Shown here: one piece after another, positions 38,449 through 62,357 of the stretch
Layout of the letters: the number at the start of each line of letters is the position of its first letter
How positions within the stretch are numbered: the first letter of the stretch is position 1
Source of the DNA: Desulfoprunum benzoelyticum
GTDB lineage: Bacteria > Desulfobacterota > Desulfobulbia > Desulfobulbales > Desulfocapsaceae
Assembly (NCBI RefSeq): GCF_014201505.1
Contig: NZ_JACHEO010000011.1
Location: 1-64,000 of the forward strand
DNA length: 64,000 bases
Direction: 5' to 3'
Translations under genes and position numbers: made by a program
Notes under the pieces: model-generated
What the model saw: the letters and a program-made list of their open reading frames with translations, nothing else
Databases searched by the model: none
Told to the model about the DNA's origin: nothing

Positions 38449-38456
38449 ATGCCAAG

Positions 38457-38497
38457 AAGGGGTTAGCCAGGGATAATAACTGGTTAACCCCTTTTTT
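38457..38497 (+). terminator. Terminator after tRNA-Arg
   Basis: AAGGGGTTAgCCAG and CTGGtTAACCCCTT form a long stem around a 9-base loop, followed by six T. It ends the tRNA transcript 8 bp after CCA. Confidence 0.9.
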
Positions 38498-38563
38498 GTT
38501 GCCGAAAGCCACCCCTTGTTTTTGCTGTTTTTTGCTTTATATTGCTCTATTATGATAATCAAA

Positions 38564-38596
38564 TGGAACAAAAGTGGAACAAAAATGGAACAATAA
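38564..38596. repeat. Three phased 11-bp direct repeats before the integrase
   Basis: TGGAACAAAAG, TGGAACAAAAA and TGGAACAATAA start at 38564, 38575 and 38586, exactly 11 bp (one helical turn) apart and 32 bp before the integrase start. Such phased repeats near attL are typical arm-type sites for a tyrosine integrase. Confidence 0.6.
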
Positions 38597-38627
38597 TCCA
38601 TGAAAAAATGGGTGAGGATTCAATATT

Positions 38628-39689
38628 ATGGCACGTATTCAACCTCGAAATGGGAAAACTCGAACAACATATACAGCCACTGTTAGAGTAAAAGGGCAAC
38701 CTTCCATATCACGAACCTTCGATACCAAAGGAGAGGCGAAAAGCTGGGCGGCCGAGGTAGAAAGGCAAATACGGATGGGGCGCTACCAAGATGTGCGGCC
38801 AGCAGAAAACCTCACTTTCGCGGATGCTTTGAGCCAATATCTGGCTCGTGTGTCAACCACCAAACGGCCAAATTCCGAGAGCCGTGATAAAATATCGGCA
38901 AAAGCACTGATTGCAGGGTTCGGTTCGGACATTTCCCTGGCGGCCATAAATCCTCAGCGTCTGGCAGAATACCGTGACAAGCGTATACAAACTGTTTCTC
39001 CGTCGACTTTCCAAAAAGAATTCGCCCTTGTCTCTCATCTGTTTAATGTAGCACGGCGTGAGTGGGGCCTACCGGTGGACAATCCGGTGCCACAAGTACG
39101 ACGTCCAAAAGTAGATAATAACCGCACACGCTTTCTTACGAAGGAAGAAGCACAGAGATTGTTGGATGTAGCCAAAACCAGCCGAAATACAAAGCTCTAT
39201 CCGTACCTACTTCTACTCATGCATACAGGCATGCGGCCAAGTGAAGCAGCAGGTTTGCAGTGGGGGGATGTCGATTTGGATGGACGCCTTGTAAAACTTC
39301 AAGTCACCAAAACCGATATGCGGTATGTTCCGCTTACTGAAATGGCGGAAAACGTTCTTCGATCAATCAGACCGAAAGAAGCACAGATGGAGACCTATGT
39401 TTTTCTTCCTCATAGCAGTAAAGAGGCTCGGAAAGTTCTCGATATTCCCTGTAACCATTTCAAACGTTCATTTGGAACAGCAAGAAAAAAAGCAGGACTT
39501 GATGACCTCCACCTCCATGATCTAAGGCATACCGCTGCCAGTCATCTCCTTATGGCCGGTGTAGATATCAGAACACTCGCGGAAATTCTTGGACACAAGA
39601 CAATGCAAATGGTGCAGCGGTATACCCATCTCCTTAATGATCACAAGTTGAAAGCGGTTGATCGGATTAATTCTTTGGGGTTGGAATAG
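38628..39689 (+). CDS. Tyrosine recombinase (element integrase)
   Basis: A 353-aa phage-type integrase. An N-terminal arm-binding domain (about 1-60) and a core-binding domain (about 62-165) come before the catalytic domain. The catalytic residues are visible: R in HTGMRPSEA, K after the strand region (TKTDMRYVPL), HxxR in LHDLRHTAA, H in LGHKTMQM and Y in VQRYTHL. It lies next to tRNA-Arg and directs site-specific insertion and excision of the element. No excisionase gene was recognised nearby. Confidence 0.95.
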   Translation: MARIQPRNGKTRTTYTATVRVKGQPSISRTFDTKGEAKSWAAEVERQIRMGRYQDVRPAENLTFADALSQYLARVSTTKRPNSESRDKISAKALIAGFGSDISLAAINPQRLAEYRDKRIQTVSPSTFQKEFALVSHLFNVARREWGLPVDNPVPQVRRPKVDNNRTRFLTKEEAQRLLDVAKTSRNTKLYPYLLLLMHTGMRPSEAAGLQWGDVDLDGRLVKLQVTKTDMRYVPLTEMAENVLRSIRPKEAQMETYVFLPHSSKEARKVLDIPCNHFKRSFGTARKKAGLDDLHLHDLRHTAASHLLMAGVDIRTLAEILGHKTMQMVQRYTHLLNDHKLKAVDRINSLGLE

Positions 39690-42900: not shown

Positions 42901-43834
42901 CTCCGGGCGTCTCGTAAGGGTCAGTACTGTCGATGGACACATAGAAACCCCTGTGCGAGAATCTGACAACGTAATACTCGCGGAGCGTTTTAAAATCTGG
43001 TCGAAAAGATACCCGTATACTTATGGCATCGACGGGGAATCGCTAAACCTGTTCTACACGACCACTGCTGACCTCCGATTATCGAGCCTGCCTCCAGGGC
43101 CAGTTCTTATTGTAGCGGACGTTAGATTCCAGCCTTTCCCACCGAACCTTCTCTATGTAGATGAAGAATTCGCTGGCCGCACAAGAGCAATGGCGATGGC
43201 GCCATCTCTGTCATGGTTGCGGGCCGCACGTTTAAAAGGAATGATAGGAGATGGACGACTCTGCTCTTGGATTTCCAGCGCAATCGGTACGTCTGAGAGC
43301 CACACTCTTTCAATGATTGCACAACGCCTTGAGGCGACGTTTAACCAATACGGCTTTATAGTCGATACCGGTCCGACACTTCCTGCCGCCTTTGCAGATG
43401 CGAGTCTTGCTGTGATCACTGCACATGGCGGGGTTCATCCAGAAGGGCGCTACTTTCAAGTCGTATCAGACGAAGGTATCCTAAGGGTGACTTCGAGGGA
43501 TCTGGCCAACTCGCTCCGAAACGTCGGCATCGTGATCCTTTTTGTGTGTAGTGGTGGCCGTGCTGACCAACACCCAGGAGCACACACTACGCTTGGATTA
43601 GCCAAGGATATACTGGATCGAGGCTGTGCCGCAGTCATCGCATCGCCATGGCCACTCGATGCGCGAATTCCCTCCCATTGGTTGCCAATATTTCTAAAAC
43701 ACTGGTCACAAGGTGCTCGATTGATCGAGGCAAATTTCTACGCCAACAAAACAGTAGACCAATATTTCTCGCAGGACCCAGCACGAGGGTTAGCGATGAC
43801 CATCTTTGGTAATCCTGCGCTACGAAGGACTTGA
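39929..43834 (+). CDS. 1301-aa CHAT-domain (caspase-like) protease
   Basis: A very long protein. The C-terminal about 250 residues are a CHAT domain with the catalytic pair H1166 (VITAHGG) and C1207 (LFVCSGG), plus GCAAVIASPWPLD and FGNPALR. Residues about 300-950 are mostly helical with TPR-like pairs (for example SLLALGTSVT, RDLVEQILLN). The first about 300 residues are unplaced. CHAT proteases cleave partner proteins in defence and cell-death systems (Craspase, gasdermin-linked proteases, CHAT-TPR). No obvious target gene is next to it. The GTG 39929 start is a guess; ATG 39971 is an alternative. Codon use differs from neighbours. Confidence 0.8.
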   Translation: MPLIRIHIGTTTIDMSNPGKSSGELSSSDKFTSSHVKTGEIVDHVRKILAFIVKNPNIFGAGDIYNVRFQSPLKLAGILTAVLTGLVDTDRGPVVEKFVVIGPPGLNAEYCEGEIWNGIANTFQLLDQGAMEPSEEARLKRRFQLVVASDRRISSALDIIRIQPEYTVIIVADAAIYRDDSIEPYIPAGASSPLQPEDVWVPQLHALATEAIKLVQEYNLYVAIDANQFSPSRKDLSDLLLSIEGCGVMGSSSVNSPDSILATRVDQWDAWIREGRLGQVFLDIERLPANLDSNKPGLRIQALYKAGHLLEALKAIRQEIALGPELDAPTRVKFARIAQDANASRFAVEILSPAIAELQSQEDLESALATAQDAGSTELEKEVVERLAELFPGSPGLRRRLLRTLLANRDYAGVAAILAKESDGKSEFYSTLACFLSGNDIPDYRSLIALAGGDTSQADTYRMACVSDALSRKLISHAFELAMPLPSTPDKIERGEKLLVRILEHILLFNDRDGVLPVQREDFQAAVQSLIERLAANPENQGLRASLAHLIQPTVAGTMGLGLMAFIVLNLASRPVRLVKRKFLGKADANWFDEHKSFLSAAFEWMGNEGMIVIGRSTFPEPLLTEPADEVVSAVTNLLTHAPLKSEEDVNTHLSLLALGTSVTPHCSDPDYDLQMMRLVASRFAISGRTQAARDLVEQILLNSTATPSRRRLGWFAMADVYHHCHNHLEAFLAMACTLVANDAGDEDQVWYEITGMARLFRDSGLHSQARIVIQKGRDILQRMSLLDDYSHRLDTLDLQIRQMKLQIGSSARADLEVLLEDVVRNSATVLNNNDFTAPAAALLGQLIRQAIEIDAVIPAEANEVYAKLLKHTKGGLYSMISTMSADAPSAEELLAITKTSTSARYSDDVGYDIRNAVIVASRALSKDHYISDAVNTSFALEVLADRGVGVPGWDEVSAPPPSLQNIDEAAEIARSISREGISVVQAGFDASGRLVRVSTVDGHIETPVRESDNVILAERFKIWSKRYPYTYGIDGESLNLFYTTTADLRLSSLPPGPVLIVADVRFQPFPPNLLYVDEEFAGRTRAMAMAPSLSWLRAARLKGMIGDGRLCSWISSAIGTSESHTLSMIAQRLEATFNQYGFIVDTGPTLPAAFADASLAVITAHGGVHPEGRYFQVVSDEGILRVTSRDLANSLRNVGIVILFVCSGGRADQHPGAHTTLGLAKDILDRGCAAVIASPWPLDARIPSHWLPIFLKHWSQGARLIEANFYANKTVDQYFSQDPARGLAMTIFGNPALRRT

Positions 43835-44820: not shown

Positions 44821-45537
44821 TTAAGCTGAAATTGTTCTTTTGTTTTTTCTGACTTGGTATCTATGCCATAAATCCAGAAAGTACACTGACCCATACGGAA
44901 AGATTGCGGCCACCAACATGAGGCCGGCAGTCTCCGTCGCGACGGGTAGTAGATGGGGTTTGACTTCAAAGAATCCCGTATAGATGCTCTGAGCTTTGGT
45001 TCCAAACTGCTGGGCGAGTTTCCAGACATTTTCAGGTGTGCTTATCCGGTAGAGCACAAGGTAGATAACGTATACAAGGAACGCCTTGAGCAACAGGGAC
45101 ATTGCCCTTCCCATGAGCAGGGAGTTGATAGCCTTCCTGGTGATGTTTCCGACATAATAGCGGCTGATATAACAGCACATGCCTGTGTTTACCAGCAACA
45201 CGAGGTAAGGGATGCTGCCGAAAATGAAGTGGCTGAACCAATCCAACTGTTTGAAGACAAACGGGAAAAGGTAAAAATGAAATACCGGAAAGAGCAACAC
45301 CAGTACAAACCCCTCGTGAAAGCCACTTTTCAATCCTATTTTGAAAAAGTCGAGGGTCCGTTCCAACGTAAGGAATTCAGCCGGTATGTTCTGGCCTTTG
45401 CTTTCAATGACGAAAAATTGCTGGACTTCGGAAATGGCATTGAGGAGATTCCTGGGCCTGTATATCCTGCCGCTATCGGTCGTGATAATCTGGGCATTGG
45501 TATCATTTTGCCCCTTATTCTCCCATTCCCTGCCCAT
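44821..45537 (-). CDS. Conjugation-operon membrane protein (possibly DUF4400-like)
   Basis: A 238-aa inner-membrane protein. Hydrophobic segments lie at about residues 75-96, 104-126, 146-165 and 202-222; the first 70 residues are cytosolic. Its start overlaps the MOBH-like gene stop by one base (TGATG). In SXT/PFGI-type elements a membrane protein of this size follows the TraD gene. I see only the layout and topology, not a signature motif. Confidence 0.55.
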   Translation of the reverse strand: MGREWENKGQNDTNAQIITTDSGRIYRPRNLLNAISEVQQFFVIESKGQNIPAEFLTLERTLDFFKIGLKSGFHEGFVLVLLFPVFHFYLFPFVFKQLDWFSHFIFGSIPYLVLLVNTGMCCYISRYYVGNITRKAINSLLMGRAMSLLLKAFLVYVIYLVLYRISTPENVWKLAQQFGTKAQSIYTGFFEVKPHLLPVATETAGLMLVAAIFPYGSVYFLDLWHRYQVRKNKRTISA

Positions 45538-46979
45538 CAGTTTTCGTGATCCGAATTATCACTGTCGAGATAGGAGCTGACTTTAATGATATCCCGCAAC
45601 ATCTGTGGCTTGGCGTGTTCCATCTCGGCAATAGATCCGAACGGCTCAGCATGAAACGGTGTGTAGTAACCTTTGATTGGTTTACCGATTTTCCGGGTCA
45701 CGTTAAAGTATCCCCCGAAAAAGGTGTCTTTTATCAGCCCACGGTCAATAACATCATGCTCGGCTCGGAGCTGATGAACGATAGTGAATAAGACACCTCG
45801 CATGGATGCGTCCTTGTGTGCCATGGTGGCGATATCCATACATCCTGCCTTTTCCGCCATTTTGCGTGCTACCTCTTCAAGTACCTTGGCCTGGAAATAG
45901 ACATGGCCATCGGGCATGGAAAACGCCAGAAACCTGCGGCCAAACATTCTGTTTATATAGGGTCTTAGATTATCCAAGAACTGTGAAGCCTCGAACCATG
46001 AGGAAATGTCGACCAGTTGCGGTGCGGTCTTCGGCTTTTTGGGGTTGGTATCATGTCCTTCGTTATAGATGTCAGCTTGAGCTTGCCATGCTGCATCGTT
46101 TTTCGTGTTTTGATCAGCCGTGTTAACTGATGGTGGTGCGTGTGCTTTGGTATCCGCAAAATCTTTTTGTAGGGTGGTACTCTCAAGTTCCTTTTGTCTT
46201 GCCTTCTGGTCGGCTTTTTTCAGTGTTTTGCCGAGCAATCCTTTTGGCATCTTGTGGTGGAGTTTTATGGCCTGAAGAATCTCATCCTTTTTGGGAAGTT
46301 TTTCGAACTCGCTGATTCCGGTAAATGCGCGTCCGGCGGCCAGAGGATGTTCTCCCACGGAATAGAGAAATCCTCGCATGGATTCAAGTTTGCCCATATC
46401 GTGGGCCAGGGCTGCGATCATTGTGTCGGGGATAACATGCCAGGCCTTGTTTTCAGAGAGCAGTTGGATAACCTCTTCGGCGACGTTAAGAGAATGATCC
46501 AGCAGGCTTATTCTTGCCAGAAGCTGGTACGTGTTTTCATCCCATCCTCCTTCTACATCCCCACGAATGTCAACCACTGAAGGGCACTGACCTTGCTGAT
46601 CGAGTAACGACAATAACCGAACGCAAACAGCCTTTTGCTGCGGAAACTTTTTAAACCAAACACTATTAAGATTGTTTTCCATGAATGCCGCCGCCCGGGG
46701 GTTTCGAAGTTGGCTGGTTTTGTTGTACTCAGAGAGAGACTGCTCGTCTCGCCATAAAGGGGAAAGCTCAGAAATATGGACTTCTCCGGAACCATCCTCT
46801 GTCCAGAGTTTAGACAAATCACGCAAATGAATAATTTCCTGAACAACGGTTTCCTTCTTTCTGCTAAAGGCTAAAACTGCAAAAATAGTAAAAATGAGCC
46901 CAACAGCGAGCATCAGAAAGCCACCATTCCAGCCTATTGCCCTGAGCCAATCGATGATGCACGGTACTGCCTCCTTCAT
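45537..46979 (-). CDS. HD-domain MOBH/TraI_2-like relaxase-type protein
   Basis: A 480-aa protein. One N-terminal hydrophobic helix lies at 18-38. An HD metal site follows: H162 (LLDHSLNVA), H193-D194 (LAHDMGK), H211 and H241-H242 (KLHHK). This matches MOBH (TraI_2) relaxases, whose HD fold nicks the transfer origin. The last 150 residues resemble the TraI_2 C-terminal region (GRRFLAFSMPDGHVYF). MOBH proteins are usually longer and not membrane anchored; here this looks like a short, anchored form. It overlaps the coupling protein gene by 4 bp. Confidence 0.65.
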   Translation of the reverse strand: MKEAVPCIIDWLRAIGWNGGFLMLAVGLIFTIFAVLAFSRKKETVVQEIIHLRDLSKLWTEDGSGEVHISELSPLWRDEQSLSEYNKTSQLRNPRAAAFMENNLNSVWFKKFPQQKAVCVRLLSLLDQQGQCPSVVDIRGDVEGGWDENTYQLLARISLLDHSLNVAEEVIQLLSENKAWHVIPDTMIAALAHDMGKLESMRGFLYSVGEHPLAAGRAFTGISEFEKLPKKDEILQAIKLHHKMPKGLLGKTLKKADQKARQKELESTTLQKDFADTKAHAPPSVNTADQNTKNDAAWQAQADIYNEGHDTNPKKPKTAPQLVDISSWFEASQFLDNLRPYINRMFGRRFLAFSMPDGHVYFQAKVLEEVARKMAEKAGCMDIATMAHKDASMRGVLFTIVHQLRAEHDVIDRGLIKDTFFGGYFNVTRKIGKPIKGYYTPFHAEPFGSIAEMEHAKPQMLRDIIKVSSYLDSDNSDHEN

Positions 46980-48343
46980 CTCTCACGGTTTGCTGACACC
47001 ATCGTCGTTCCAGTCAGATCGGGAAAAGTAACTTTGAGTTTGCTATCATGAACTGTTGCCGTCTTTCCTTTATATGTGCCGGAATAGGTGTTCAGAAATA
47101 TCTCCCGGGCGGCCATGTTCAGGACCTCGGTATGCTTGATACGAACCTCCTCGGTCTCCCGAATCGATAGACCGCCGCCGACAGAAATAATCGGTGAAAA
47201 CCGTTTTTCTTCACCAAGGTGCCTGGAAACATAGCTGGCGGTGTTTGCATCCGGTACCCGCATAAACAGTTTGGTATTGCAGTTATCCAGGATAGTATTG
47301 GCACGGTCTTCCCCTACCTCGGCATAGAGCTGGCTGATCGATTGGCAATAGCCGTGAATAAAGACGCCTGCACCACCCGCTTTGGCAAAAAGGTCCTCGA
47401 TACCGTTGTAGAGTACAGACTGGGCCTCATCTATATGGAGGACAAGGGGAGGGGTGACGCTTTTGCCGCTGGAGTAAACCCGGCCGACAAAGGCCTGTAT
47501 CATGGAGATGATCACCTTGCCGGCGGTGTATGCCGCTCTTTTGGTCAGGAGTGACCCCAGCTGCACGACTAGAATGATTCCTTTGTTCTGTTCCAGTCGC
47601 TTGATGAAACGATTCTCATCCGCCTTGCCGATGATCTGACCCACATTTCCGGACGTCAATTCGGTCAAAGCTACACGGAGAGAACTTGCGACTTTGGAAT
47701 AGTAGTCTGCAGGAGTCGAGAGAATTTTCTGCATATCCCTGGATAGCTGCTCTGCTTCTTGGGTGTTAATATAATCAAGTTGCTCTTTCAGCCGTTCCAG
47801 GTCTTGGTGGCTGATATGGTTTTTGATGTCGTTTAGATTAAACGAAGGAGCGGCACCATTCACTTCGGCAAGCATGATCAGTGCCTGTACGACTACCAGG
47901 CTTACCTCATAAGCAACTCCAAAAAAATATGGTTCGCGGCCAACCGCGACGCCAGCGGTGATATGAGCGACTAATTCTTCCGGCATGTAATACGAGGAAA
48001 GGGGATCAAGGATGGCGCTGTATTGGGGGAATATCGGAGTAATCAACATCAGGTCATGGAGACGACCGGTGGCATCAGCAAGCTGCGTGATTTTTGAAAA
48101 AAGGTCGATATCCCCCTTCGGGTCAATCGCCACCACTGAATAACCCTTGCTGATGTCCTGCTCGATGATATGTTCCATCAACCTTGTTTTTCCTACCCGG
48201 GTTGTACCAAAACACCAGAAATGCCCTTTGCGGAAATGATCTGGAAAGCCCAATTCGACAATAGTCTCTGGGCGATCAAGGTGAACTCCTGTCCCGATAT
48301 GCGTCCATAAACTTTCTTTGTTCTTCGATTTCAGGAGTTTCAT
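46976..48343 (-). CDS. TraD-like type IV coupling ATPase
   Basis: A 455-aa ATPase of the TraD/VirD4 class that links the relaxosome to the secretion channel. Walker A is FGTTRVGKTR (45-54) and Walker B LVLHIDEAQ (300-308). The middle has HGYCQSISQLYAEVG and CNTKLFMRV (all-ATPase core). Most TraD proteins have two N-terminal membrane helices; here the ATPase domain starts almost at once (about residue 30), so the anchor is missing or supplied by the downstream membrane proteins. ATGA overlaps join it to both neighbours. Confidence 0.85.
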   Translation of the reverse strand: MKLLKSKNKESLWTHIGTGVHLDRPETIVELGFPDHFRKGHFWCFGTTRVGKTRLMEHIIEQDISKGYSVVAIDPKGDIDLFSKITQLADATGRLHDLMLITPIFPQYSAILDPLSSYYMPEELVAHITAGVAVGREPYFFGVAYEVSLVVVQALIMLAEVNGAAPSFNLNDIKNHISHQDLERLKEQLDYINTQEAEQLSRDMQKILSTPADYYSKVASSLRVALTELTSGNVGQIIGKADENRFIKRLEQNKGIILVVQLGSLLTKRAAYTAGKVIISMIQAFVGRVYSSGKSVTPPLVLHIDEAQSVLYNGIEDLFAKAGGAGVFIHGYCQSISQLYAEVGEDRANTILDNCNTKLFMRVPDANTASYVSRHLGEEKRFSPIISVGGGLSIRETEEVRIKHTEVLNMAAREIFLNTYSGTYKGKTATVHDSKLKVTFPDLTGTTMVSANRER

Positions 48344-53650: not shown

Positions 53651-54216
53651 CAACCTAAAAACACTTCCCTGTAGGTGCGATCAAAGCTTATTCCTGAGAA
53701 GGTTGCAGATCAGTATACGTACTAAACTCAAACTGCCAAAAGTCAACACATTTCCGATTCTTGAGAATTAGGATAGAAGGCTGGTCCAATAACCCATTCG
53801 CTTACCTGTGGTCGGAGGCGCAAGGGCTATTGAATATTTCTTCTTGATTTTTTCACACCTGAATGTAACTATATAATCAATATTCCACTTGTTTTACACA
53901 AGTAATCCCTCTTTGCAGGGAAATAGCTGGGCGCTCTTGTTTCCTGTCACTCGCAGAAACGGTGCATTTCAAAAGATCGCCCTTGGAACACCCCAAACGC
54001 CTTGTCTATCTGTAAAAGACAGTTTCATCGCACAGGCGAACTTCTCTGTTTACGATTTGACATGGCGTACCACTACAGCAGATTTCTTATTAGAATAACT
54101 GCTCCTTTTTTGATCCCCGATTCGATGTCCGGTAACTGAACTGCAGTAAGCTTTTCGTGCGTGATTTTCTTGGTCGTTGCCCGGCATGCAGTTTGTCATT
54201 CACCACACCCTATCAA

Positions 54217-54262
54217 CGGGAGAGCACACAGACTCCCGACAGGGGACGTGTTGTCTCTCTCA
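54217..54262 (+). promoter_or_regulatory. Leader hairpin 1 (before the Rad52-like gene)
   Basis: GAGAGCACAC pairs with GTGTTGTCTCTC (outer arm) and TCCC with GGGA (inner arm). It ends 21 bp before ATG 54283 and the ribosome site AGGAGG follows it. Confidence 0.55.
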
Positions 54263-54282
54263 CATCACAGGAGGAAACAACA

Positions 54283-54969
54283 ATGTCCGAAGGAAAAAAT
54301 CTTACAAAACAGGTTGAAGAGATCAATGCAGAGCTTCGCGGTTTTGGCCGAGCGGCTGTGCAGGAGATCAAGATGATGAAGGATGGGAAGGTTGTTGGCC
54401 AGGTTCGATATGGCTACAAGCCGCAGTATGTCTTTGATGCCGTAAATAAAATCCTATTGCCGGAAAACTGGCGATACGAGGTAGTTAGCAAGGAGATTTT
54501 TGATAGTCAGGTGGTTGCTGAGGTCCGGCTCTTTATCCGCGTGAATGATACAGAGTGGATCTGCAAAGGATCCCAGACGGGGCAGATGCAAATCGTGAAA
54601 GGTAATGTCGGGGACTCTTATAAGGGGGCAACCACGGATGCTATTCAGAAATGTCTGTCTTTGCTCTCCATTGGGACCGATGCATACAGAGGATTGCTTC
54701 GCGATGTTTATCTTGGAAGTAATCGTCCAGCTGCTCCGCCGCCTAAGCAAAAAACAGAGCAACCCATCGCAGCATCCACGAAGTCCGACGCCGATCAGGC
54801 CAAAAACAACTCCGATTTGCCCAAAATCGCCGGTATCAATTATCAGCACAGGGATGGAATTGTTGTAGCTGTCGGTAACTCGTTTGATAAAAAAGACCTG
54901 CTGAAATCAGCCGGTTTCAAATGGGATAAGGCTGATAAGAACTGGTACAAAGAGGTTGTGCTTCATTAG
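54283..54969 (+). CDS. Rad52/Rad22-like single-strand annealing protein
   Basis: A 228-aa protein from ATG 54283 (AGGAGG 9 bp upstream). The first about 150 residues match the Rad52/Rad22 family: GYKPQYVFDAVNKILLPENW (about 43-62) and GATTDAIQKCLSLLSIG. A short basic tail has the FDKKDLLKSAGFKWDKADK motif seen in several DNA-binding mobile-element proteins. Rad52-type annealases pair with nucleases to recombine phage and plasmid DNA; the nuclease gene follows. Confidence 0.75.
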   Translation: MSEGKNLTKQVEEINAELRGFGRAAVQEIKMMKDGKVVGQVRYGYKPQYVFDAVNKILLPENWRYEVVSKEIFDSQVVAEVRLFIRVNDTEWICKGSQTGQMQIVKGNVGDSYKGATTDAIQKCLSLLSIGTDAYRGLLRDVYLGSNRPAAPPPKQKTEQPIAASTKSDADQAKNNSDLPKIAGINYQHRDGIVVAVGNSFDKKDLLKSAGFKWDKADKNWYKEVVLH

Positions 54970-55005
54970 CGCGTAACCCATCTCACTTTTTATCTCACCC
55001 AATGA

Positions 55006-55047
55006 GGGAGGACATTGTTTCCCCTCGTGGGATCCGTGTGTTCTCCC
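55006..55047 (+). promoter_or_regulatory. Leader hairpin 2 (before the Cas4-like gene)
   Basis: GGGAG pairs with CTCCC, ACA with TGT, and TCCC with GGGA in the inner arm around CTCGT. It ends 25 bp before ATG 55072 and its SD GGGAGGAAATG follows. Confidence 0.55.
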
Positions 55048-55071
55048 TTTACCTTAGGGAGGAAATGACAC

Positions 55072-56046
55072 ATGGATATCAAAACCACACTGCTGACAAG
55101 CCTGCGCAAGCTGGCAAAACAGCATACCGAAGAGACTCTGGGAGATCGCAGCAATTACCTTGGTGCATCCGATATCGGATATTGCCCAAGAAAAGTGATC
55201 CTGGAGAAAATCAATCCAACGGAACATGATTTGGCCACCCTTCTTCGTTTCGAGCGGGGGCACATGGCCGAGGAGATCGTTGCCAATGCTTTTGCCGCTG
55301 CAGGATACACAAATTTCGAGCGGCAGGTTGAAGTCGCAGTCGATGGCAATGTACCAATCACGGCTCATATAGACTTCGTTTTCACTTCGGAAATTCATAA
55401 GATCAAATCCGTTCTGGAGACAAAGAGCACGAGCAATATCCCTGATGATCCGTATGGCTCCTGGGAATCTCAGCTTTACATCCAGATGGGTGCATTGGCC
55501 AAAAAATTCCCTGATTACACAATCAGAGGTGCGTTTATAGCACTCGATCTCGCAAATGGTGAAGCTGAGTTTTTCAATGGCTATTCCCCGCAGAAAACCA
55601 TCTTTGCTGGACTGCTCAAAAAGGCCGAAGCACTCTGGGCTGACTATCAGGCAATACTTTGTGGAAAAGAGGTTGAGCTTGATACCGATCCAGGACCCCT
55701 TTGTGGTTTTTGCAACCATTTGACAAGCTGCCCCAGGTTCGAGGCCGAAGAGGTTCCGCACCTGGCAGCGAGTGTCAATGAATTGCGGGAACTGCAAGCA
55801 AACGAGAAGAAGTTCAAGGATAAGGTTAATCCTTGCAAGCAAAAGATTTTTGCCATTGTCCAGAAAAGAGGATCCATCAAATCAGGCGGTTGCGTTCTCA
55901 GAGCGGCAACCAGAACAAGAAAGCATCTCGTTACGAGTCGGCTTGATCACTTTTTGAGAGATCATGGCAGCTCCATCGACGAATTCCAAGAAGATCGGTC
56001 TTTCTCCTTTCTGGAGATAAAAAAAGCAAACACTGCCTCAGCGTAA
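55072..56046 (+). CDS. Cas4-like PD-(D/E)XK nuclease with 4Fe-4S cysteines
   Basis: A 324-aa protein. The nuclease core has D101 (HIDFV) and E116-T-K118 (LETKS), the PD-(D/E)XK pattern. Four cysteines, C38 (GYCPRK) and C211, C214, C220 (CGFC-N5-CPR), match the cluster ligands of Cas4/AddB nucleases. It follows the annealase by about 100 bp and probably acts as its partner exonuclease. Nothing CRISPR-related is nearby, so it is not a CRISPR adaptation gene. Confidence 0.75.
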   Translation: MDIKTTLLTSLRKLAKQHTEETLGDRSNYLGASDIGYCPRKVILEKINPTEHDLATLLRFERGHMAEEIVANAFAAAGYTNFERQVEVAVDGNVPITAHIDFVFTSEIHKIKSVLETKSTSNIPDDPYGSWESQLYIQMGALAKKFPDYTIRGAFIALDLANGEAEFFNGYSPQKTIFAGLLKKAEALWADYQAILCGKEVELDTDPGPLCGFCNHLTSCPRFEAEEVPHLAASVNELRELQANEKKFKDKVNPCKQKIFAIVQKRGSIKSGGCVLRAATRTRKHLVTSRLDHFLRDHGSSIDEFQEDRSFSFLEIKKANTASA

Positions 56047-56069
56047 GGCAAACAAAAACATCCCAGCTC

Positions 56070-56109
56070 GGGGAGATCCTTTTCCCACGGTGGGAATCTG
56101 CATTTCTCC
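56070..56109 (+). promoter_or_regulatory. Leader hairpin 3 (before ssb)
   Basis: Outer arm CGG.GAGAT/ATTTCTCCG and inner perfect TTCCCA-CGG-TGGGAA. It ends 42 bp before ATG 56152. Confidence 0.6.
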
Positions 56110-56151
56110 GAAATTCTATGTTTTATCAATCTTTCATAAGAGGAGAACGAC

Positions 56152-56553
56152 ATGAACAAGACAATGATAATCGGAAACTTAGGCAACGATCCTGAATTGC
56201 ATTACACCAAAAACAGTGCTGCTCCGGTGACAACGTTATCAATTGCCACAACCGAGCGGTGGAAAGACGCTGATGGTAACAAGCAGGAACAGACAGATTG
56301 GCATCGTGTCGTTGCCTGGGGAGGACTTGCCGTCGTGTGCGGTGAACATCTTCATAAAGGCGACAAAGTCTACATTGAGGGACGACTTCGTACACGGAAA
56401 TGGGAAGATCAGGACGGCATCACCCGTTATACCACTGAAATTATCGCCAGAGAAATGGAGATGCTCGGTGGTCATGGCGACAGGAATGCTGGCAGCATTC
56501 CGCCGAACAGTGATACCGCCGAACCACCCCTGCCGGAAGATGTTCCTTTCTAA
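56152..56553 (+). CDS. ssb: Single-stranded DNA-binding protein
   Basis: A 133-aa SSB with the OB fold: MNKTMIIGNLGNDPELHYT, then WHRVVAWGGLA and KGDKVYIEGRLRTRKWED. The C-terminal tip is PLPEDVPF, the acidic tail that recruits partner proteins. The linker is short (about 20 residues). AGAGGAG precedes the ATG by 6 bp. Located inside the recombination block. Confidence 0.96.
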   Translation: MNKTMIIGNLGNDPELHYTKNSAAPVTTLSIATTERWKDADGNKQEQTDWHRVVAWGGLAVVCGEHLHKGDKVYIEGRLRTRKWEDQDGITRYTTEIIAREMEMLGGHGDRNAGSIPPNSDTAEPPLPEDVPF

Positions 56554-56595
56554 CCGATTACATCAACCACAAGAAAAGGATAACGAAAGATCAGA

Positions 56596-56647
56596 GAAAA
56601 TCCCGGCGGCATGCGCCATCACCTGCAATCTCAGGGCCGGGATTTTC
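56596..56647 (+). promoter_or_regulatory. Long leader stem before the methyltransferase gene
   Basis: GAAAATCCCGGC (56596-56607) pairs perfectly with GCCGGGATTTTC (56636-56647), leaving a 28-base loop that holds smaller hairpins. It ends 30 bp before ATG 56678. Its plan differs from the other leaders, with a longer stem, but it has the same place. Confidence 0.55.
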
Positions 56648-56677
56648 ATTTTCTTCACGCTGTCAGGAGGAAAAACA

Positions 56678-57715
56678 ATGGCAAGACTCGCATCCCAGGC
56701 AAAAGCCGGCTTTTATCCAACTCCGGATAAAGTCTGCGACCTGCTGAAAACAAAAATATCATTTGAAGATGGTGCCAGACTGCTTGATCCATGTTGCGGA
56801 GAAGGGAAAACCCTTTCCAACCTGGCTCAGCAATCAATGGCTCTCACTACCTATGGAATAGAACTCGACCACCAGAGAGCTCAAAGGGCCAAATCGAGGC
56901 TTACCAAAGTGTTGTGGGGAGATGGTTTGACTGAAATGAAAATCTCACCACACTCATTTGGCCTGCTCTACCTGAACCCTCCCTATGACACTGCGATAAA
57001 CCAAGATGGCAAGTCACAGCGGCTGGAAGCACAGTTTTTGCGGCGCTATCTTGGTACCCTGCAGCAAGGAGGCTATCTGGTCCTGATCATTCCCTACTAT
57101 ATCCTCAAGCACTGTGCCAAACCCCTGGCCAGGTATTTCAAGATCCAGGTGCTTGGCTTTCCTGAAGATGAATTCCTACCATTCAAACAGTGTATCGTGG
57201 TTGGCAGGAAACAATTGCTTGCTCCCAGGGAACAAGCGATACAAATAGAGTCTCATCTTGTAGAACTGTCGGACATGGATCCCGATGAATTTATGGATTC
57301 TGTTTTTACCCTGGAAGATATGGCGCCCATCATCGTGCCGGTCACGTCAAAGCCGCTTCTAAATTTTACGGCAAATAAGACAGATCCGCTTGAAGCCATC
57401 CCCCTTGTTCGTAAGGTTGGAGTGTTAAAAAACCTGCTAGAGGATCTTACGCCAAAGAAAAACACTGAAATCCGTCCATTGACCCCGCTGGAAAACGGCC
57501 ACCTGGCCTTGATGCTGGCTGGCGGTTATATGAACGGAGCGATTGAAAAAGATGGTCGGCAACTGGTGATTAAAGGTGTTGTCCGTAAGTCTGAGAAAGT
57601 GATCAGTGTTCATGAGAACGAATCAGGCGAAGGCACTATTACGACACGAGACCAGTACACGCCAACCGTCAAGGTCATTGACATGCAGGCAGCTGAACTG
57701 CTCAATGTTCAGTAG
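56678..57715 (+). CDS. DNA adenine methyltransferase-like protein (DUF6094)
   Basis: A 345-aa protein with a class I methyltransferase fold: SAM loop LLDPCCGEG (35-43) and catalytic NPPY (100-103). The GIELDHQRAQRAK segment is the acidic SAM strand. Enzymes with NPPY methylate adenine or rRNA N6 positions. The last about 130 residues are unplaced. Start ATG 56678 with AGGAGG 9 bp before it; a longer frame upstream overlaps ssb and is rejected. Genes of this type (DUF6094) are common in ICEs and large plasmids. Confidence 0.8.
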   Translation: MARLASQAKAGFYPTPDKVCDLLKTKISFEDGARLLDPCCGEGKTLSNLAQQSMALTTYGIELDHQRAQRAKSRLTKVLWGDGLTEMKISPHSFGLLYLNPPYDTAINQDGKSQRLEAQFLRRYLGTLQQGGYLVLIIPYYILKHCAKPLARYFKIQVLGFPEDEFLPFKQCIVVGRKQLLAPREQAIQIESHLVELSDMDPDEFMDSVFTLEDMAPIIVPVTSKPLLNFTANKTDPLEAIPLVRKVGVLKNLLEDLTPKKNTEIRPLTPLENGHLALMLAGGYMNGAIEKDGRQLVIKGVVRKSEKVISVHENESGEGTITTRDQYTPTVKVIDMQAAELLNVQ

Positions 57716-57739
57716 TCGTTACCTCACACTTACCCATCT

Positions 57740-57773
57740 GGGAGAGCATCCCCCGCGTGGGGATCTCTCTCCC
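57740..57773 (+). promoter_or_regulatory. Leader hairpin 4 (before the 189-aa gene)
   Basis: GGGAGAG/CTCTCCC outer arm and ATCCCC-CGCGT-GGGGAT inner arm: the most regular member of the set. It ends 20 bp before ATG 57793. Confidence 0.65.
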
Positions 57774-57792
57774 TTTCACACAGGAGAGATAC

Positions 57793-58362
57793 ATGTTTAA
57801 AAACGAAAAATATGTAACAGTGCAAACCGCTGGTTTTATCACCTACTGTGACGCTCTGATTGCAAGAGCCACCGGTGGTGAACTTGAGGCCTATTTATTC
57901 AGCCTTATCGGCACACCATCCCATATCAAAGCATCTTCTGCTGTTCTATTTGGCGGGGAGACCTGCCGTATATCAAGCCAGGATGATCTACCCCAAAACG
58001 TCAGTTTTTCTGGGGCAGTGCGAACCTGTCGGACCCGCAAGATTGGTGAAACGGTCAACAAGATTATGGTGAGTGAAAATCATTTTCCGGAAACTTGTAG
58101 CCAGGTCACCTCTTCAACAGTTGTCTTTGGTCCCGATATATCCCTGGTGCAAGAGCGCTCTTTTCTGCGGCTCGATGTGGCAACCAGTATTCCCTTGAAG
58201 CCGCAATGGCAAGGTTGGCTTTGGGATGAAATTTTGCAGCCCGAGAAACTCTACTCTTTTGGTGGAGACGAGCTTCGCGAGGCCTACCTTATAACATGGC
58301 CAGTGGATGACACGCTTCAAGAACAAATCCTTGAAGGAGTGAAACAGAGATATTTGACGTAA
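57793..58362 (+). CDS. Unrecognised 189-aa protein of recombination block
   Basis: A soluble protein that I cannot name. It begins FKNEKYVTVQTAGFITYCDA and has LFGGETCRISSQDDLP and LRLDVATSIPLKPQWQGW. ATG 57793 is preceded by CAGGAGAG at 8 bp. It has the same leader hairpin as its neighbours, so it belongs to the same block. The middle has two cysteines with no clear motif. Confidence 0.6.
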   Translation: MFKNEKYVTVQTAGFITYCDALIARATGGELEAYLFSLIGTPSHIKASSAVLFGGETCRISSQDDLPQNVSFSGAVRTCRTRKIGETVNKIMVSENHFPETCSQVTSSTVVFGPDISLVQERSFLRLDVATSIPLKPQWQGWLWDEILQPEKLYSFGGDELREAYLITWPVDDTLQEQILEGVKQRYLT

Positions 58363-58382
58363 TTAAAACGAACCTACCCATA

Positions 58383-58425
58383 GGAGGGCGAACAAAGCCC
58401 TTTGGGGGACATTGTTTGCCTTTCC
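58383..58425 (+). promoter_or_regulatory. Leader hairpin 5 (before the helicase gene)
   Basis: GGGC...ACAA/TTGT...GCC outer arm and GCCC-TTT-GGGG inner arm. It ends 26 bp before ATG 58452. Confidence 0.55.
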
Positions 58426-58451
58426 CATAGCTTAAAAAAGGAAGGTGAACG

Positions 58452-60827
58452 ATGGAAGTCAACACTCGTGCACTTGATCCGAAAGCACAGATCCAGAGTG
58501 CTCCTGATCAGGTAACAACCAAAACAGTAAAGCTGGCTGATTTCTTGGGTGATTGGGGCAATATCCTCAAAGCCCAGGTCATCAAGAATATGAATCCGGT
58601 CTATTCGCCCAAGGCGGAGGATGATTGGGACATAGCGGCCAGGAAAAAGCTACAACAACTGATTCGTCCTCCATTTGCCTCACAGACCAGGCGGGGAATT
58701 CTCCCTGTAGCCCGATCGTTTTACAAAGAAGATCACAAGGCTGCTTTCCTGGTTGGCGAGATGGGAGCCGGCAAGACCTTTATGGGGCTTGCGATGGCGT
58801 ATCTCATTCCAAAATCATCCAAAAGAATCCTGATCCAATGCCCGGGTCACCTGGTCAAAAAATGGATCCGGGAGGCAGAGGAAACCATACCAGGTTGCTC
58901 TTGCTATAACCTGGATGACAAAAGTATGAAGCAGCTTCTTGCCCACAAACTGCATGCAACCAGGCCGTTTGGTACTGAGATCTGGGTTATCGGCAAAGAG
59001 CGGGCAAAGCTGCATTTTCAACGGAAACAAAATATCATCCTGCGACGAGGTGCCGAATGCTGCCCGGATTGCGGCAAAGCGGTTGAAGTATCGGAAACCG
59101 ACAAGTCGCCAATCTGTGAACACTGCAGAGCAAGATTGTGGGCTGCAGACAGGGATAAGGTCCGGCGCTATGCCAAGGCTGAGTTTATAAAAAGGTTTTT
59201 TCCAAAGAACTTCTTTGATCTGCTTATTCTCGATGAGGTCCACGAACTCAAAGGCGGCGGTACGGCCCAGGGCCAGGCAATGAGTTGTCTGATCGCAAAA
59301 TCCAAAAAGATACTGGCTCTCACCGGAACCCTCATGGGCGGTTACTCCAAAGACCTTTTTTATCTTCTCTGGCGGATGTTTCCAGGCCAGATGAAAGCAG
59401 CCGGCTTTGAGTATGGCCGTACTCTGCAGTTTGCCGAACGCTACGGCGTCGTCCAGCGTACCTATGACAGTAAAGACATAGCTGCGAGTCTGAATATCGC
59501 AAGTATCGGTCGTAAAATCGGTAGATCAAGAGTCAAGGAGGCACCGGGTATTTCACCGCTGCTTCTGCCAAATCTGCTGCTTGAACGTTCAGTCTTTGTA
59601 CGGCTGGCGGATATCAGTGACGCATTACCGGATTATGATGAAATCATTGTGCCGGTGGCCATGAACGAGGACCAGCAAACAGAATATGACCAGTTGTCCG
59701 ATAGTCTGATGTCAGCGACCAGGCAGGCCCTGGCCCGTGGCGACATGCGGCTTCTAGGCAAGATGCTCCAGTCATTACTGGCGTATCCTGATGGTTGCCG
59801 TGTCGAGGAACTGGTTACCCTTGACAAAAATGGTACTGAAGAAATCGTCGGCAGTGCACAGGCACTGGAGGATATCGACTTACTCCCCAAGGAAGCGCGT
59901 CTTCTCGAGATTCTTGCAGCTGAGAAGAAGCAGGGGCGAAAGGTTGCTGTCTTTCTGGAGCATACTGGAACGCGGGATTTGCTGCCGACCCTGCAAGAAA
60001 AACTCAGCACAAACGGTTTTTCTCCACTGGTAATGAGGAGTCAGGCCATAAGGCCCGAAAATCGTGAAGAATGGCTGAAAGACAAAATGACAACAGACAG
60101 GTATGACTGTCTGGTTTGTAATCCGAACCTGGTGAAAACCGGTTTAGATCTGCTGGATTTTCCTACCATCATCTTTTTTCAATGCGGTTATTCGGTCTTT
60201 ACTCTGCGTCAGGCCAGCCGTCGTTCATGGCGTATTGGCCAGCATTTACCGGTACGGGTGTTTTATATGGCCTATGCTGGGACAATGCAGGGAAAGGCCC
60301 TCTCCCTGATGGCCCAGAAGATGGAAACATCGCTGGCTGTCGAAGGCGAGTTGTCCGATCAGGGGCTGGCTGCCTTGTCGGAATCCGATAACTCCATGAT
60401 GTATGAACTTGCCAAGGCCCTCACCGGCAAGAAAACAGTGGGCTCCATGGACGATGCCTGGACCAGATACAAACAGCACCAGCTTATTTCGTGCCTGTCT
60501 CTTGATGATGATCAGGATGTCCGGGAGACCACAACAACCACTATCAAGACGACCACGACCATGACAACAACTGCCGGCTCCACTTCGATTACGCATGAAT
60601 TCATTGTGCGTGGCAAGGTGTATGTCCAAAATGACGGTGCAGTTGTCTATATTGGCCGTAACCGATTTGATCTGAAAGCCGGGGCCGTCTATTGGGCCGG
60701 AAGAAAGATCGGTTGGTATGACCGCAAAGGATGTGGCGAGATAAACGAAAAACCAATCCGTATTTACCGGCCTGAAGAGTCGCAAGGCTTTGTGCTGGCG
60801 GAAATACGAAAGCGACAAACAGCGTAA
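58452..60827 (+). CDS. SNF2-type superfamily 2 helicase with zinc ribbon
   Basis: A 791-aa DNA-dependent ATPase. Walker A is GEMGAGKT (102-109), the DEVH box is at 261-264 and motif VI is QASRRSWRIGQ, the SNF2 form. An inserted zinc ribbon (C204, C207, C222, C225) lies between the two. After motif VI a threonine-rich linker (about residues 693-710) joins a small C-terminal domain with VRGKVYVQNDG. It likely remodels or unwinds DNA for the element's replication or repair. Spaced about 90 bp after the unknown gene with the leader hairpin in between. Confidence 0.88.
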   Translation: MEVNTRALDPKAQIQSAPDQVTTKTVKLADFLGDWGNILKAQVIKNMNPVYSPKAEDDWDIAARKKLQQLIRPPFASQTRRGILPVARSFYKEDHKAAFLVGEMGAGKTFMGLAMAYLIPKSSKRILIQCPGHLVKKWIREAEETIPGCSCYNLDDKSMKQLLAHKLHATRPFGTEIWVIGKERAKLHFQRKQNIILRRGAECCPDCGKAVEVSETDKSPICEHCRARLWAADRDKVRRYAKAEFIKRFFPKNFFDLLILDEVHELKGGGTAQGQAMSCLIAKSKKILALTGTLMGGYSKDLFYLLWRMFPGQMKAAGFEYGRTLQFAERYGVVQRTYDSKDIAASLNIASIGRKIGRSRVKEAPGISPLLLPNLLLERSVFVRLADISDALPDYDEIIVPVAMNEDQQTEYDQLSDSLMSATRQALARGDMRLLGKMLQSLLAYPDGCRVEELVTLDKNGTEEIVGSAQALEDIDLLPKEARLLEILAAEKKQGRKVAVFLEHTGTRDLLPTLQEKLSTNGFSPLVMRSQAIRPENREEWLKDKMTTDRYDCLVCNPNLVKTGLDLLDFPTIIFFQCGYSVFTLRQASRRSWRIGQHLPVRVFYMAYAGTMQGKALSLMAQKMETSLAVEGELSDQGLAALSESDNSMMYELAKALTGKKTVGSMDDAWTRYKQHQLISCLSLDDDQDVRETTTTTIKTTTTMTTTAGSTSITHEFIVRGKVYVQNDGAVVYIGRNRFDLKAGAVYWAGRKIGWYDRKGCGEINEKPIRIYRPEESQGFVLAEIRKRQTA

Positions 60828-60847
60828 CACCAACAACCATTCACCTG

Positions 60848-60892
60848 ACCAGGGGAATCAATTCCCTGGAACGGGGCATTGGTTTCTCTGGT
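60848..60892 (+). promoter_or_regulatory. Leader hairpin 6 (before radC)
   Basis: ACCAG/CTGGT and GAATCAAT/ATTGGTTTC outer arm, TCCC/GGGG inner arm. It ends 17 bp before ATG 60910, with AGGAGG close to its end. Confidence 0.6.
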
Positions 60893-60909
60893 CCCAAAGG
60901 AGGAAGCCA

Positions 60910-61392
60910 ATGCTCTTTGTAAAAGATCAGGATGGTGAATATCATCCCGCACCGAAAAAGTTGGTTCTCACCGAGGCGAATAAGCTCATAGGCTACCAAC
61001 TGCGACGCGGTGCCTCTATTCTCTCTTCAGAATGCGCCAAGGCGGTTATCGGCTGTAAGCTCCGTGGTAGACAGTGTGAAGTTTTTGCCTGCCTGTTTCT
61101 GGACTCAAAGCATCGGGTCCTTGCATTCAAGGAGATGTTCACAGGTACAATCAACCACACAACGGTCCATCCGAGAGAGATAGTCAAAGAGGCCCTGCAG
61201 CTCAATGCCGAGGCAATCATCCTGGCCCACAATCACCCCTCAGGTGGCAGTGAGCCAAGCACTCAGGATATTTCCCTGACGACTACCCTGACCAATATTC
61301 TGAAAATCATAGATGTGCGGATCCTCGATCACCTGGTAGTCGGTGATGAGGTTACCGCGTTTTCCGATCTGGGAATTTTACCGGAGAAATAA
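60910..61392 (+). CDS. radC: RadC-family JAB/MPN metalloprotease-like protein
   Basis: A 160-aa RadC lacking the N-terminal helix-hairpin-helix of chromosomal RadC; it is the short mobile-element form. The JAMM zinc motif is intact: E (EMFTGT), then HNHPSGGSEPSTQD. The start ATG 60910 (MLFVKDQ) follows AAGGAGG by 8 bp; an upstream frame start at 60790 overlaps the helicase gene and the hairpin and is rejected. Its function is unknown, despite the name. Confidence 0.9.
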   Translation: MLFVKDQDGEYHPAPKKLVLTEANKLIGYQLRRGASILSSECAKAVIGCKLRGRQCEVFACLFLDSKHRVLAFKEMFTGTINHTTVHPREIVKEALQLNAEAIILAHNHPSGGSEPSTQDISLTTTLTNILKIIDVRILDHLVVGDEVTAFSDLGILPEK

Positions 61393-61410
61393 CCACACAT
61401 CCCATAACAA

Positions 61411-61446
61411 GGGGCAGACATGTCCCTTCGGGGGAGTGGCCTGCCC
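61411..61446 (+). promoter_or_regulatory. Leader hairpin 7 (before the DUF932 gene)
   Basis: GGGCAG/CTGCCC outer arm and TCCC-TTCG-GGGG inner arm with a stable UUCG tetraloop. It ends 33 bp before ATG 61480. Confidence 0.6.
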
Positions 61447-61479
61447 TATTGATAGACAACAAAAATCAAGGAGGCAGGT

Positions 61480-62307
61480 ATGAACGTAATCAAAACTTTA
61501 ACCAACGACAACATAATCACCCTCGCACCGGCAGCCGGATCTCTGGCACCCATTGGCACCGTTTCGTCAAGGTATTCATTTGTGCCGACTTTAACGGCGG
61601 TCGATCTGCTGCGTGAAGCAGGATGGTTTCCGATCCATGCGGAGCAAAGCATAGTACGCAAAACTGAGCGGGAAGGGTACCAGCGGCACCTGATTCGTTT
61701 TGCCAAAAATGGCTTGTCATTCGACGGTGAACGGGTTGACCTGGTTCTCTATAATTCCCACGACTGTGGCTGTGCCTTTAAGCTGATAGCTTCAGTCTGG
61801 CGGCAGATATGCGGCAACGGATTGATGGTTGCCTCGGAGTTTGCCAACTTCAGCCATAAGCATATCGGCTTCAGTCCGGATGCATTTATCCATTCAGCTG
61901 GCGAGATTGCATCTGCAGCCGGAACCATTGCCGAGCGGGTAGACGAGATGAAGGTAATCGAGATGACTCCGGACGAGCGAGGCGTTTTTGCCCAGGCAGC
62001 GCATAGCCTGATTTATGACGAGCCCGACCAGGCCCCCGTGCAGCCACATCAATTGCTTGATGAACGGCGCTATGACGACAAGGGTAATGATCTCTGGACA
62101 ACATTCAACGTGATCCAGGAAAATGTCATGCGTGGCGGCCTCAAAGGCATTACCAGAGGCGGCGACGGACGACTCAGGAGAGCAACCACACGACCGGTCA
62201 AAGCACTTGATCGAAATATCAAACTGAACCAGGCGCTTTGGTTCTTGACGGAAAAAATGGCAGAGCTGAAGCAAGTCGAGGGGAATCTTTCGACTGTATC
62301 GGCTTAA
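61480..62307 (+). CDS. DUF932-family protein
   Basis: A 275-aa protein of the DUF932 (YubP/phage-plasmid) family: SRYSFVPTLTAVDLLREAGW in the first 60 residues, HLIRFAK and a central CNG segment (WRQICGNGLMVASEF). The family is found on plasmids, phages and ICEs next to recombination genes and has no proven function. AAGGAGG precedes ATG 61480. It closes the recombination block; a strong terminator follows. Confidence 0.85.
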   Translation: MNVIKTLTNDNIITLAPAAGSLAPIGTVSSRYSFVPTLTAVDLLREAGWFPIHAEQSIVRKTEREGYQRHLIRFAKNGLSFDGERVDLVLYNSHDCGCAFKLIASVWRQICGNGLMVASEFANFSHKHIGFSPDAFIHSAGEIASAAGTIAERVDEMKVIEMTPDERGVFAQAAHSLIYDEPDQAPVQPHQLLDERRYDDKGNDLWTTFNVIQENVMRGGLKGITRGGDGRLRRATTRPVKALDRNIKLNQALWFLTEKMAELKQVEGNLSTVSA

Positions 62308-62328: not shown

Positions 62329-62357
62329 AGCCGTCTCCTTCGGGGGACGGCTTTTTT
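62329..62357 (+). terminator. Terminator after DUF932 gene
   Basis: GCCGTCTCC-TTCG-GGGGACGGC forms a 9-bp stem with one G-U pair, followed by six T. It ends the 54-62 kb block. Confidence 0.93.

Follow-up and report, generated by a model that had tools for sequence, protein, structure and literature searches.

The closest published systems to the leaders described here are the parA and traH RNA switches of the gonococcal genetic island (PMC8716806). In that account, the 5' untranslated region (5' UTR) of parA folds into two stem-loops made of legs A to D, the second of which hides the Shine-Dalgarno (SD) sequence and the start codon. Without legs B and C, reporter expression rose about 10-fold in E. 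coli and, with p 0.14 in the legend, about 400-fold in gonococci; mutation of leg A abolished it. A similar switch precedes traH and is described as opening when leg A is unavailable, and a modest effect of copper on the gonococcal-island switch is also reported. We analyzed the first 64,000 nucleotides of contig NZ_JACHEO010000011.1 of Desulfoprunum benzoelyticum (assembly GCF_014201505.1), a stretch that we call the window. In it, a hairpin leader lies directly 5' of the start codon of each of seven adjoining genes, which belong to a likely mobile element and include several with DNA-handling functions. In five of the seven, the 3' arm of this hairpin is predicted to be able to pair either with an upstream arm resembling a ribosome-binding site (RBS) or with the RBS of the gene itself, and the leader is therefore predicted to be an on/off switch for translation. 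We consider a translation switch the most likely function, with a probability of roughly 0.7.

Each leader can be divided into segments: an upstream CCC (segment 0; CCTG at 60910), the RBS-like 5' arm (1), a CCC (2), a GGG (3), the 3' arm (4) and the RBS with the start codon (5); 1:4 denotes pairing of segments 1 and 4, and so on. An original prediction, made from the letters of the DNA and its reading frames, had placed an imperfect two-part hairpin before the genes at 54283, 55072, 56152, 57793, 58452, 60910 and 61480, and all seven hairpins were found at those places and fold as it described. As isolated RNAs they had folding energies of -17.3 to -27.1 kcal/mol and z-scores, in gene order, of -2.91, -3.46, -1.99, -3.22, -3.66, -4.49 and -2.31 (200 dinucleotide shuffles each), that of the ssb leader (56152) being the weakest. 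The outer stems vary in sequence with the pairing kept, as in AGGGCGAACAA/TTGTTTGCCTT before 58452 and ACCAGGGGAATCAA/TTGGTTTCTCTGGT before 60910, and when 5' and 3' arms were reassigned among the seven genes, the total for own pairing was matched by only 5 of 5,040 assignments, the own one included.

What the original prediction had overlooked is a second complementarity of the hairpin's 3' arm, to the RBS of its own gene and often to the start codon as well. Both complementarities of this arm were shown from the sequences and by computation. At 58452 the arm CATTGTTTGCCTTTCC stands opposite GGAAGGTGAACGATG, and at 60910 the arm CATTGGTTTCT stands opposite AGGAAGCCAATG, which includes the start codon. 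The total for own 3' arm and RBS was matched by 16 of 5,040 assignments in the window (own included), and in a matrix of swaps the best partner of the arm was its own RBS for four of the seven genes (57793, 58452, 60910 and 61480). Two folds follow from these pairings. In fold A, the best fold when the RBS is held unpaired, 1:4 is closed around 2:3 and the RBS is free. In fold B, the usual best fold without constraint, 0:3 encloses 1:2 and 4:5 hides the RBS and often the start codon; this fold could also be seen row by row in the helicase and radC-gene leaders of relatives. For six of the seven leaders in the window, the best fold has more than half of the RBS paired (with bases outside segment 4 in the ssb leader), and segment 4 is predicted to hide it in five of the seven. 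Freeing the RBS costs 2.1 to 15.9 kcal/mol in the window.

The family was delimited with a core scan for 0:3 around 1:2, with CCC and GGG required, over 51 sources (the window and loci L002-L045 and L090-L095; 765,793 bases), the plus strand of each locus being by construction that of its helicase gene. The scan recovered five of the seven window leaders and gave 192 plus-strand sites, 189 of which are followed by an SD, a start codon and an open reading frame (ORF) of at least 50 codons, as compared to only 13 of 151 minus-strand sites; five Markov-shuffled controls gave 0-4 sites each. The three minus-strand sites of the window overlie leaders, which is what a self-complementary core leads one to expect. 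Beyond the CCC and GGG demanded by the scan, only weak base preferences were found, and the loops are variable in length and sequence. Two covariance models were also used. At E<=1, R1, built from eight radC-gene leaders, matched 140 times across 43 sources, 18 times on the minus strand. With R2, built from 60 sequences, matches at E<=3e-4 were obtained for all window leaders except that of ssb, two of the six having been part of its training set; the ssb leader, at E 0.26, scored no better than the region upstream of the methyltransferase gene (E 0.24). A CCC-GGG-CCC-GGG core that can form on both strands, ahead of DNA-processing genes of likely conjugative elements and with a 4:5 helix showing no G.U preference, would also suit hairpins that matter only as DNA or single-stranded DNA, either as protein-binding dyads or as single-strand promoters used on entry into a recipient. 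We find this very unlikely in view of the strand bias relative to start codons and of a complementarity that extends into the RBS and start codon. Moreover, with arms that vary between genes, one sequence-specific protein would not fit them all, and in six of the seven window cases just 8-28 nt separate the upstream stop codon from the start of the leader, which leaves little room for promoters.

Among the leaders of the scan, 187 had a usable start, and removal of those more than 75% alike left a non-redundant set of 67. In this set the mean 4:5 energy was -13.05 kcal/mol with the own RBS and -9.0 kcal/mol with swapped ones (z -13.4; 0 of 20,000 permutations). The own-versus-swapped z was -18.9 for 1:4 and -8.9 for the post-SD part of the RBS alone, as against 0.3 for a control stretch upstream of the leader. 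The own RBS ranked among the best 5% for 27 leaders and among the best 25% for 47. Across the family, segment 4 thus matches the RBS of its own gene. These values were obtained with segments cut to the core, which were adopted after the result of a first test on loosely cut segments (57 of 5,040 permutations in the window; the median z was -1.9 for helicase leaders and +0.5 for ssb leaders, with the signal weak in the others), and the plasmid loci, which lie outside the discovery clade, served as a check on this change. There, 4:5 gave z -5.9 (0 of 20,000 permutations; one of the 24 leaders was in the R2 training set), and this is the cleanest replication of own-RBS pairing. Plain hairpins for RNA stability or processing between cistrons would account for the intercistronic position, for the stable stems and for the two window leaders of seven that keep the hairpin, the RBS complementarity then being a by-product of purine-rich 5' arms. 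The own-versus-swapped tests, including that on the post-SD part alone, contradict such a by-product, and we rank this explanation as the least probable of those considered.

Covariation was assessed in an alignment of the 140 R1 rows, fitted to fold A and including 18 minus-strand rows. Paired cells in 1:4 and 2:3 amounted to 90.7%, compared to 74.4% after shuffling, and cells with two-sided changes numbered 295, compared to 98.6; the covariation score was 0.477, compared to 0.204 for shuffled and 0.078-0.114 for slid controls (0 of 500 shuffles in each of the three comparisons). Covarying pairs, which the original prediction had proposed to look for, are therefore present in 1:4 across relatives. 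The radC-gene orthologue leaders taken alone were too similar for covariation to show, and RNAalifold, run on 46 leaders aligned with MAFFT, returned no pairs. That a single structured RNA is used seven times in a row, as had been proposed, is supported by a pairing kept more than the sequence and by the two-sided changes in related elements.

The hairpins had also been said to lack a following T-run. None of the five window leaders tested has five T directly after the stem and the other two have none by sequence, and terminators were rejected for the window on this ground. Elsewhere in the family, at least five T follow the 1:4 stem in 60 of 166 leaders, for example in L007 before 4731, where fold A would resemble an intrinsic terminator; 32 of these 60 precede DUF932, methyltransferase, exonuclease or g5 genes. 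The leaders could be intercistronic transcription attenuators, in which fold A with its U-run would be the intrinsic terminator and fold B the antiterminator. This is an unlikely account of the family: the U-run occurs in only 10 of 56 non-redundant leaders, in 0 of 30 before ann, ssb and hel genes and in 3 of 14 in plasmid loci, and attenuation leaves the match of segment 4 to its own RBS unexplained. The subset with a U-run may nonetheless also act on transcription.

To follow the order of folding, every transcript length was folded. Under loose labels, 1:2 formed first in all seven window leaders and 1:4 next, and pairing of the RBS with the region preceding it came last. These labels counted any pairing of the pre-RBS region and let 1:4 persist; they were replaced by a strict count, in which the same segment 4 bases pair segment 1 in the nascent RNA and then the RBS in the full leader, with 1:4 gone (53 of 67 became 48 of 67, seven of seven became five of seven, and the difference from swapped RBSs grew clearer). 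The strict partner change was found in the leaders of 54283, 55072, 58452, 60910 and 61480. In the 67 leaders it was commoner than with swapped RBSs, for which 60 swaps gave a mean of 22.0 and a maximum of 28. Computed in this way, anti-SD and anti-anti-SD pairings exclude each other in those 48 of 67 leaders and in five of seven in the window. When cut at the start codon, the radC-gene leaders of the window and of L002 remained in fold A, and that of the window moved to fold B with three more bases. The RBS is at least half paired in the predicted minimum-energy fold of 52 of the 67 leaders. In silico, blocking segment 4 opened the RBS by more than 0.1 in 54 of 67, stabilizing 2:3 did so in 29 and closed it in none, and stabilizing 1:2 closed it in 12. 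These strict counts and perturbations, computed on minimum-energy folds, suggest a leader that is open first and closed later.

In the mechanism that we propose, the growing RNA would pass through 1:2, 1:4 and finally 4:5, the RBS being born next to an open fold A and closed by 4:5 as it emerges, with fold B then predicted to be the more stable in most leaders. Fold B would repress translation in the cell, and expression would come from an early-loading ribosome or from a factor that frees segment 4 or stabilizes 2:3. Such a switch could let the element set many genes together. The opposite effects of stabilizing 2:3 and 1:2 would also be expected of a shared ligand- or protein-sensing element, with 2:3 or 0:3/1:2 as the sensor and segments 4 and 5 as the output. 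We regard this as possible but doubtful, given that the CCC and GGG were imposed by the scan, that base preferences are otherwise weak and loops variable, and that no ligand or protein candidate was found. Small-molecule aptamers are unlike such weakly conserved, variable loops.

Several observations weigh against a translation switch, or against its extension to every leader. The arms of 54283, 55072 and 56152 (three of seven) pair better with the RBS of another gene, the leaders of 56152 and 57793 keep the 1:4 hairpin in the predicted folds, and the full partner change is absent in 19 of 67 leaders. The ssb leaders of relatives gave no own-RBS signal in the loosely cut test (0 of 20 in the best 5%, median z +0.5). 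Internal single mismatches in 4:5 do not favour G.U above A.C (1 to 3 among the 67 leaders; 8 to 14 among the 187), and the excess of G.U seen in 1:4 (16 to 2) has in part a compositional origin. The cost of freeing the RBS (median 6.5 kcal/mol in the 67 leaders) was not above that of 120 control ATGs, mostly probably ORF-internal (p 0.26), so the evidence for a switch is the specificity of the pairing and not its cost. Blocking segment 1 or 2 in silico barely shifted the equilibrium, and the route to the ON state must therefore be kinetic or act on segment 4. No regulator was found for the leaders. Finally, no alternative fold able to free the parA RBS was found by the authors of PMC8716806, who explained the leg A result by a longer second stem-loop.

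Within the 3.78-Mb assembly of the same genome, the top six R2 matches are the leaders described here (E<=0.018) and the next has E 0.44; there is no convincing match outside the block, and the remaining 55,682 bases of the contig gave none at E<=1. Matches at E<=0.01 occur in 50 of the 242 genomes of the order, this one among them. Six plasmid loci of alpha-, beta- and gammaproteobacteria (Comamonas, Vibrio, Pseudomonas aeruginosa pKLC102, Shewanella, Nitrogeniibacter and Rhizobium) together hold 24 sites that R2 matches at E<=0.1, every one of them on the plus strand; a start codon stands at the end of all 24, which the model itself favours, and an annotated start in 19. A further 50, more distant loci yielded 12 matches at the same threshold, some of them in two loci titled Deferribacteraceae, and L016 and L022 each hold twelve plus-strand matches (E<=0.05). 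A first scan of viral contigs gave no relatives and a second gave nine distant ones. In a search with the helicase, the gene order annealase-like, exonuclease, ssb, methyltransferase, g5, helicase, radC, DUF932 recurred whole or in part in many loci, mostly in records titled Desulfobulbaceae, Desulfocapsa and similar.

The original prediction had suggested that the leaders might be the Rfam radC motif. Searches with RF01754 matched nothing in the window at its gathering score (40 bits) and, at E<=10, nothing in 50-64 kb or in three relatives; the model gave no match in 58 related genomes either, a run in which 14 control genomes also gave none. In pKLC102 (L092), which served as positive control, it scored 96.8, 83.8 and 81.8 bits at three places. 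Two of these radC RNAs stand before genes 1160 and 2261 of L092, where they precede leaders detected by R2 by about 10 and 30 nt; the third precedes gene 4736, where a leader fits by eye only and was missed by both scan and model. The radC RNA, of 149 positions, has another structure and sequence than the leaders. Identity of the two was therefore rejected, with no RF01754 match here and a separate element upstream of such leaders in pKLC102: they are different elements, able to stand side by side. The association with radC was right in neighbourhood and wrong in identity, and of the interpretation as a whole it is the repeated structured RNA that stands. At gathering scores, Rfam 15 found only tRNA in the window, nothing in six relatives and only radC and tRNA in the six plasmid loci, with radC outside the leaders. 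It is to be noted that the pKLC102 radC RNAs (L092 929-1076, 2006-2156 and 4534-4671) contain GG(U/C)AGC(G/A)CG, which we take to resemble the ops site of RfaH targets.

Six of the seven leaders start close to upstream stop codons and a terminator-like site follows the last gene (Table 1), so they are probably control elements inside one mRNA. Across the family, the distance from the upstream stop to segment 0 has a median of 22 nt and is within 60 nt in 155 of 179 cases; for 23 leaders the stop lies beyond 60 nt and 8 leaders have none, which argues that ribosome coupling is not required. A promoter-like site was found at 53850-53877, the total number of such sites not being above chance. The eighth gene of the block, that of the methyltransferase (56678), has a different long hairpin, AAAATCCCGGC...GCCGGGATTTT, in place of the switch (window 56566-56680), so that the leader precedes seven of eight genes. 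L002 has a similar hairpin, the same gene carries a switch in L007, L013, L014 and others, and 12 switch leaders were found 5' of it in relatives. The annealase proposed for the first gene was not confirmed. Upstream of the block, a tRNA gene followed by a tyrosine integrase gene (window 38373-39689) marks a likely integration site; elsewhere in the contig the tRNA end is not repeated exactly over 15 bases or more. Beside the integrase lies a 1,301-aa protein with a weak CHAT-domain match (window 39929-43834), and a TraD-like coupling protein with an adjoining HD-domain protein occupies 45537-48343 on the minus strand, its best NCBIfam match, SXT_TraD, being below cut-off.

Table 1. Leaders, genes and terminator-like site of the block, in window coordinates.
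Feature	Coordinates	Strand	Remarks
Leader 1 (gene 54283)	54208..54285	+	Segments 0-5, CCC to start codon; 5' arm from 54218, 3' arm about 54246-54262; core scan
Leader 2 (gene 55072, RecE/Cas4-like exonuclease)	54998..55074	+	Core scan; R2 E 1.2e-5
Leader 3 (gene 56152, ssb)	56062..56154	+	Hairpin present; predicted segment 4 stays off RBS; core scan; R2 E 0.26
Leader 4 (gene 57793)	57733..57795	+	Predicted fold keeps hairpin, RBS mostly open; R2 E 1.7e-7
Leader 5 (gene 58452, SNF2-type helicase)	58377..58454	+	15-bp pairing of 3' arm with RBS and start codon; core scan; R2 match
Leader 6 (gene 60910, RadC)	60844..60912	+	3' arm pairs from SD through start codon; R1 and R2 models
Leader 7 (gene 61480, DUF932)	61401..61482	+	Core scan; R2 E 1.9e-4
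Gene 1	54283..54969	+	228 aa; no match in Pfam, NCBIfam or PDB; only a weak match to PHROG 'exonuclease'
Gene 2, RecE-like/Cas4-like exonuclease	55072..56046	+	phrog_434, 4.5e-16; cas4 match below its cut-off
Gene 3, single-strand DNA-binding protein (ssb)	56152..56553	+	PF00436, 8.6e-38
Gene 4, DUF6094 methyltransferase	56678..57715	+	No clear switch leader in the window
Gene 5, unassigned protein (g5), conserved among relatives	57793..58362	+	—
Gene 6, SNF2/ResIII helicase	58452..60827	+	Domain matches
Gene 7, RadC JAB-domain protein	60910..61392	+	Domain matches
Gene 8, DUF932 protein	61480..62307	+	Domain match
Likely intrinsic terminator closing the operon	62329..62352	+	10-pair stem, TTTTT tail; consensus match

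No description of a leader of this kind before successive genes was found among the titles and abstract starts listed by searches of open-licence PMC text, and a paper on PAPI-1 control (PMC8565334) makes no mention of stem-loop, UTR or similar terms. The STAXI motif, compared by its description in PMC2864571, in which a table names radC, resembles the leaders as a repeated structure near ssb, antirestriction and integrase genes and differs from them in its tandem pseudoknots, often with UUCG loops. The leaders, unlike STAXI, are single bistable structures, one per gene, with an arm complementary to the RBS. The output modules of translational riboswitches consist of anti-anti-SD, anti-SD and SD strands. 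The leaders share with them three strands competing at the SD; unlike in them, no conserved part beyond the required CCC and GGG stood out as an aptamer, and their strands vary from gene to gene to suit the RBS of each.

Taking the leaders as translation switches, one could go further and see a family-wide translational timer of conjugative elements, with the gonococcal-island switches as members: the RBS would be born open and shut with 4:5, each copy being tailored to its own RBS, so that only fresh mRNA would be translated, as after entry into a new cell. We offer this as a tentative extension, and do not expect it to hold in full. If the leaders do act as switches, conjugative elements would have a widespread layer of translational control that Rfam 15 did not list for the scanned sequences and that serves as many as twelve genes per locus, with the fold kept and the sequence rewritten for each gene. 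It would also provide a testable model for the RNA switches of the type IV secretion island and put the radC RNA in the same control regions. In the passages of PMC8716806 compared here, the gonococcal switches and the leaders have in common a type IV secretion island and a 5' UTR fold, predicted here, that hides the SD and start codon. The former are described for two operons only, without repeated use before successive cistrons, and the leaders, unlike the traH switch, are not predicted to open when segment 1, the putative counterpart of leg A, is unavailable. As a lead, legs A, B, C and D of parA may correspond by analogy to segments 1, 2, 4 and 5; if they do, both reporter results would be predicted, because in our model segment 1 frees the RBS.

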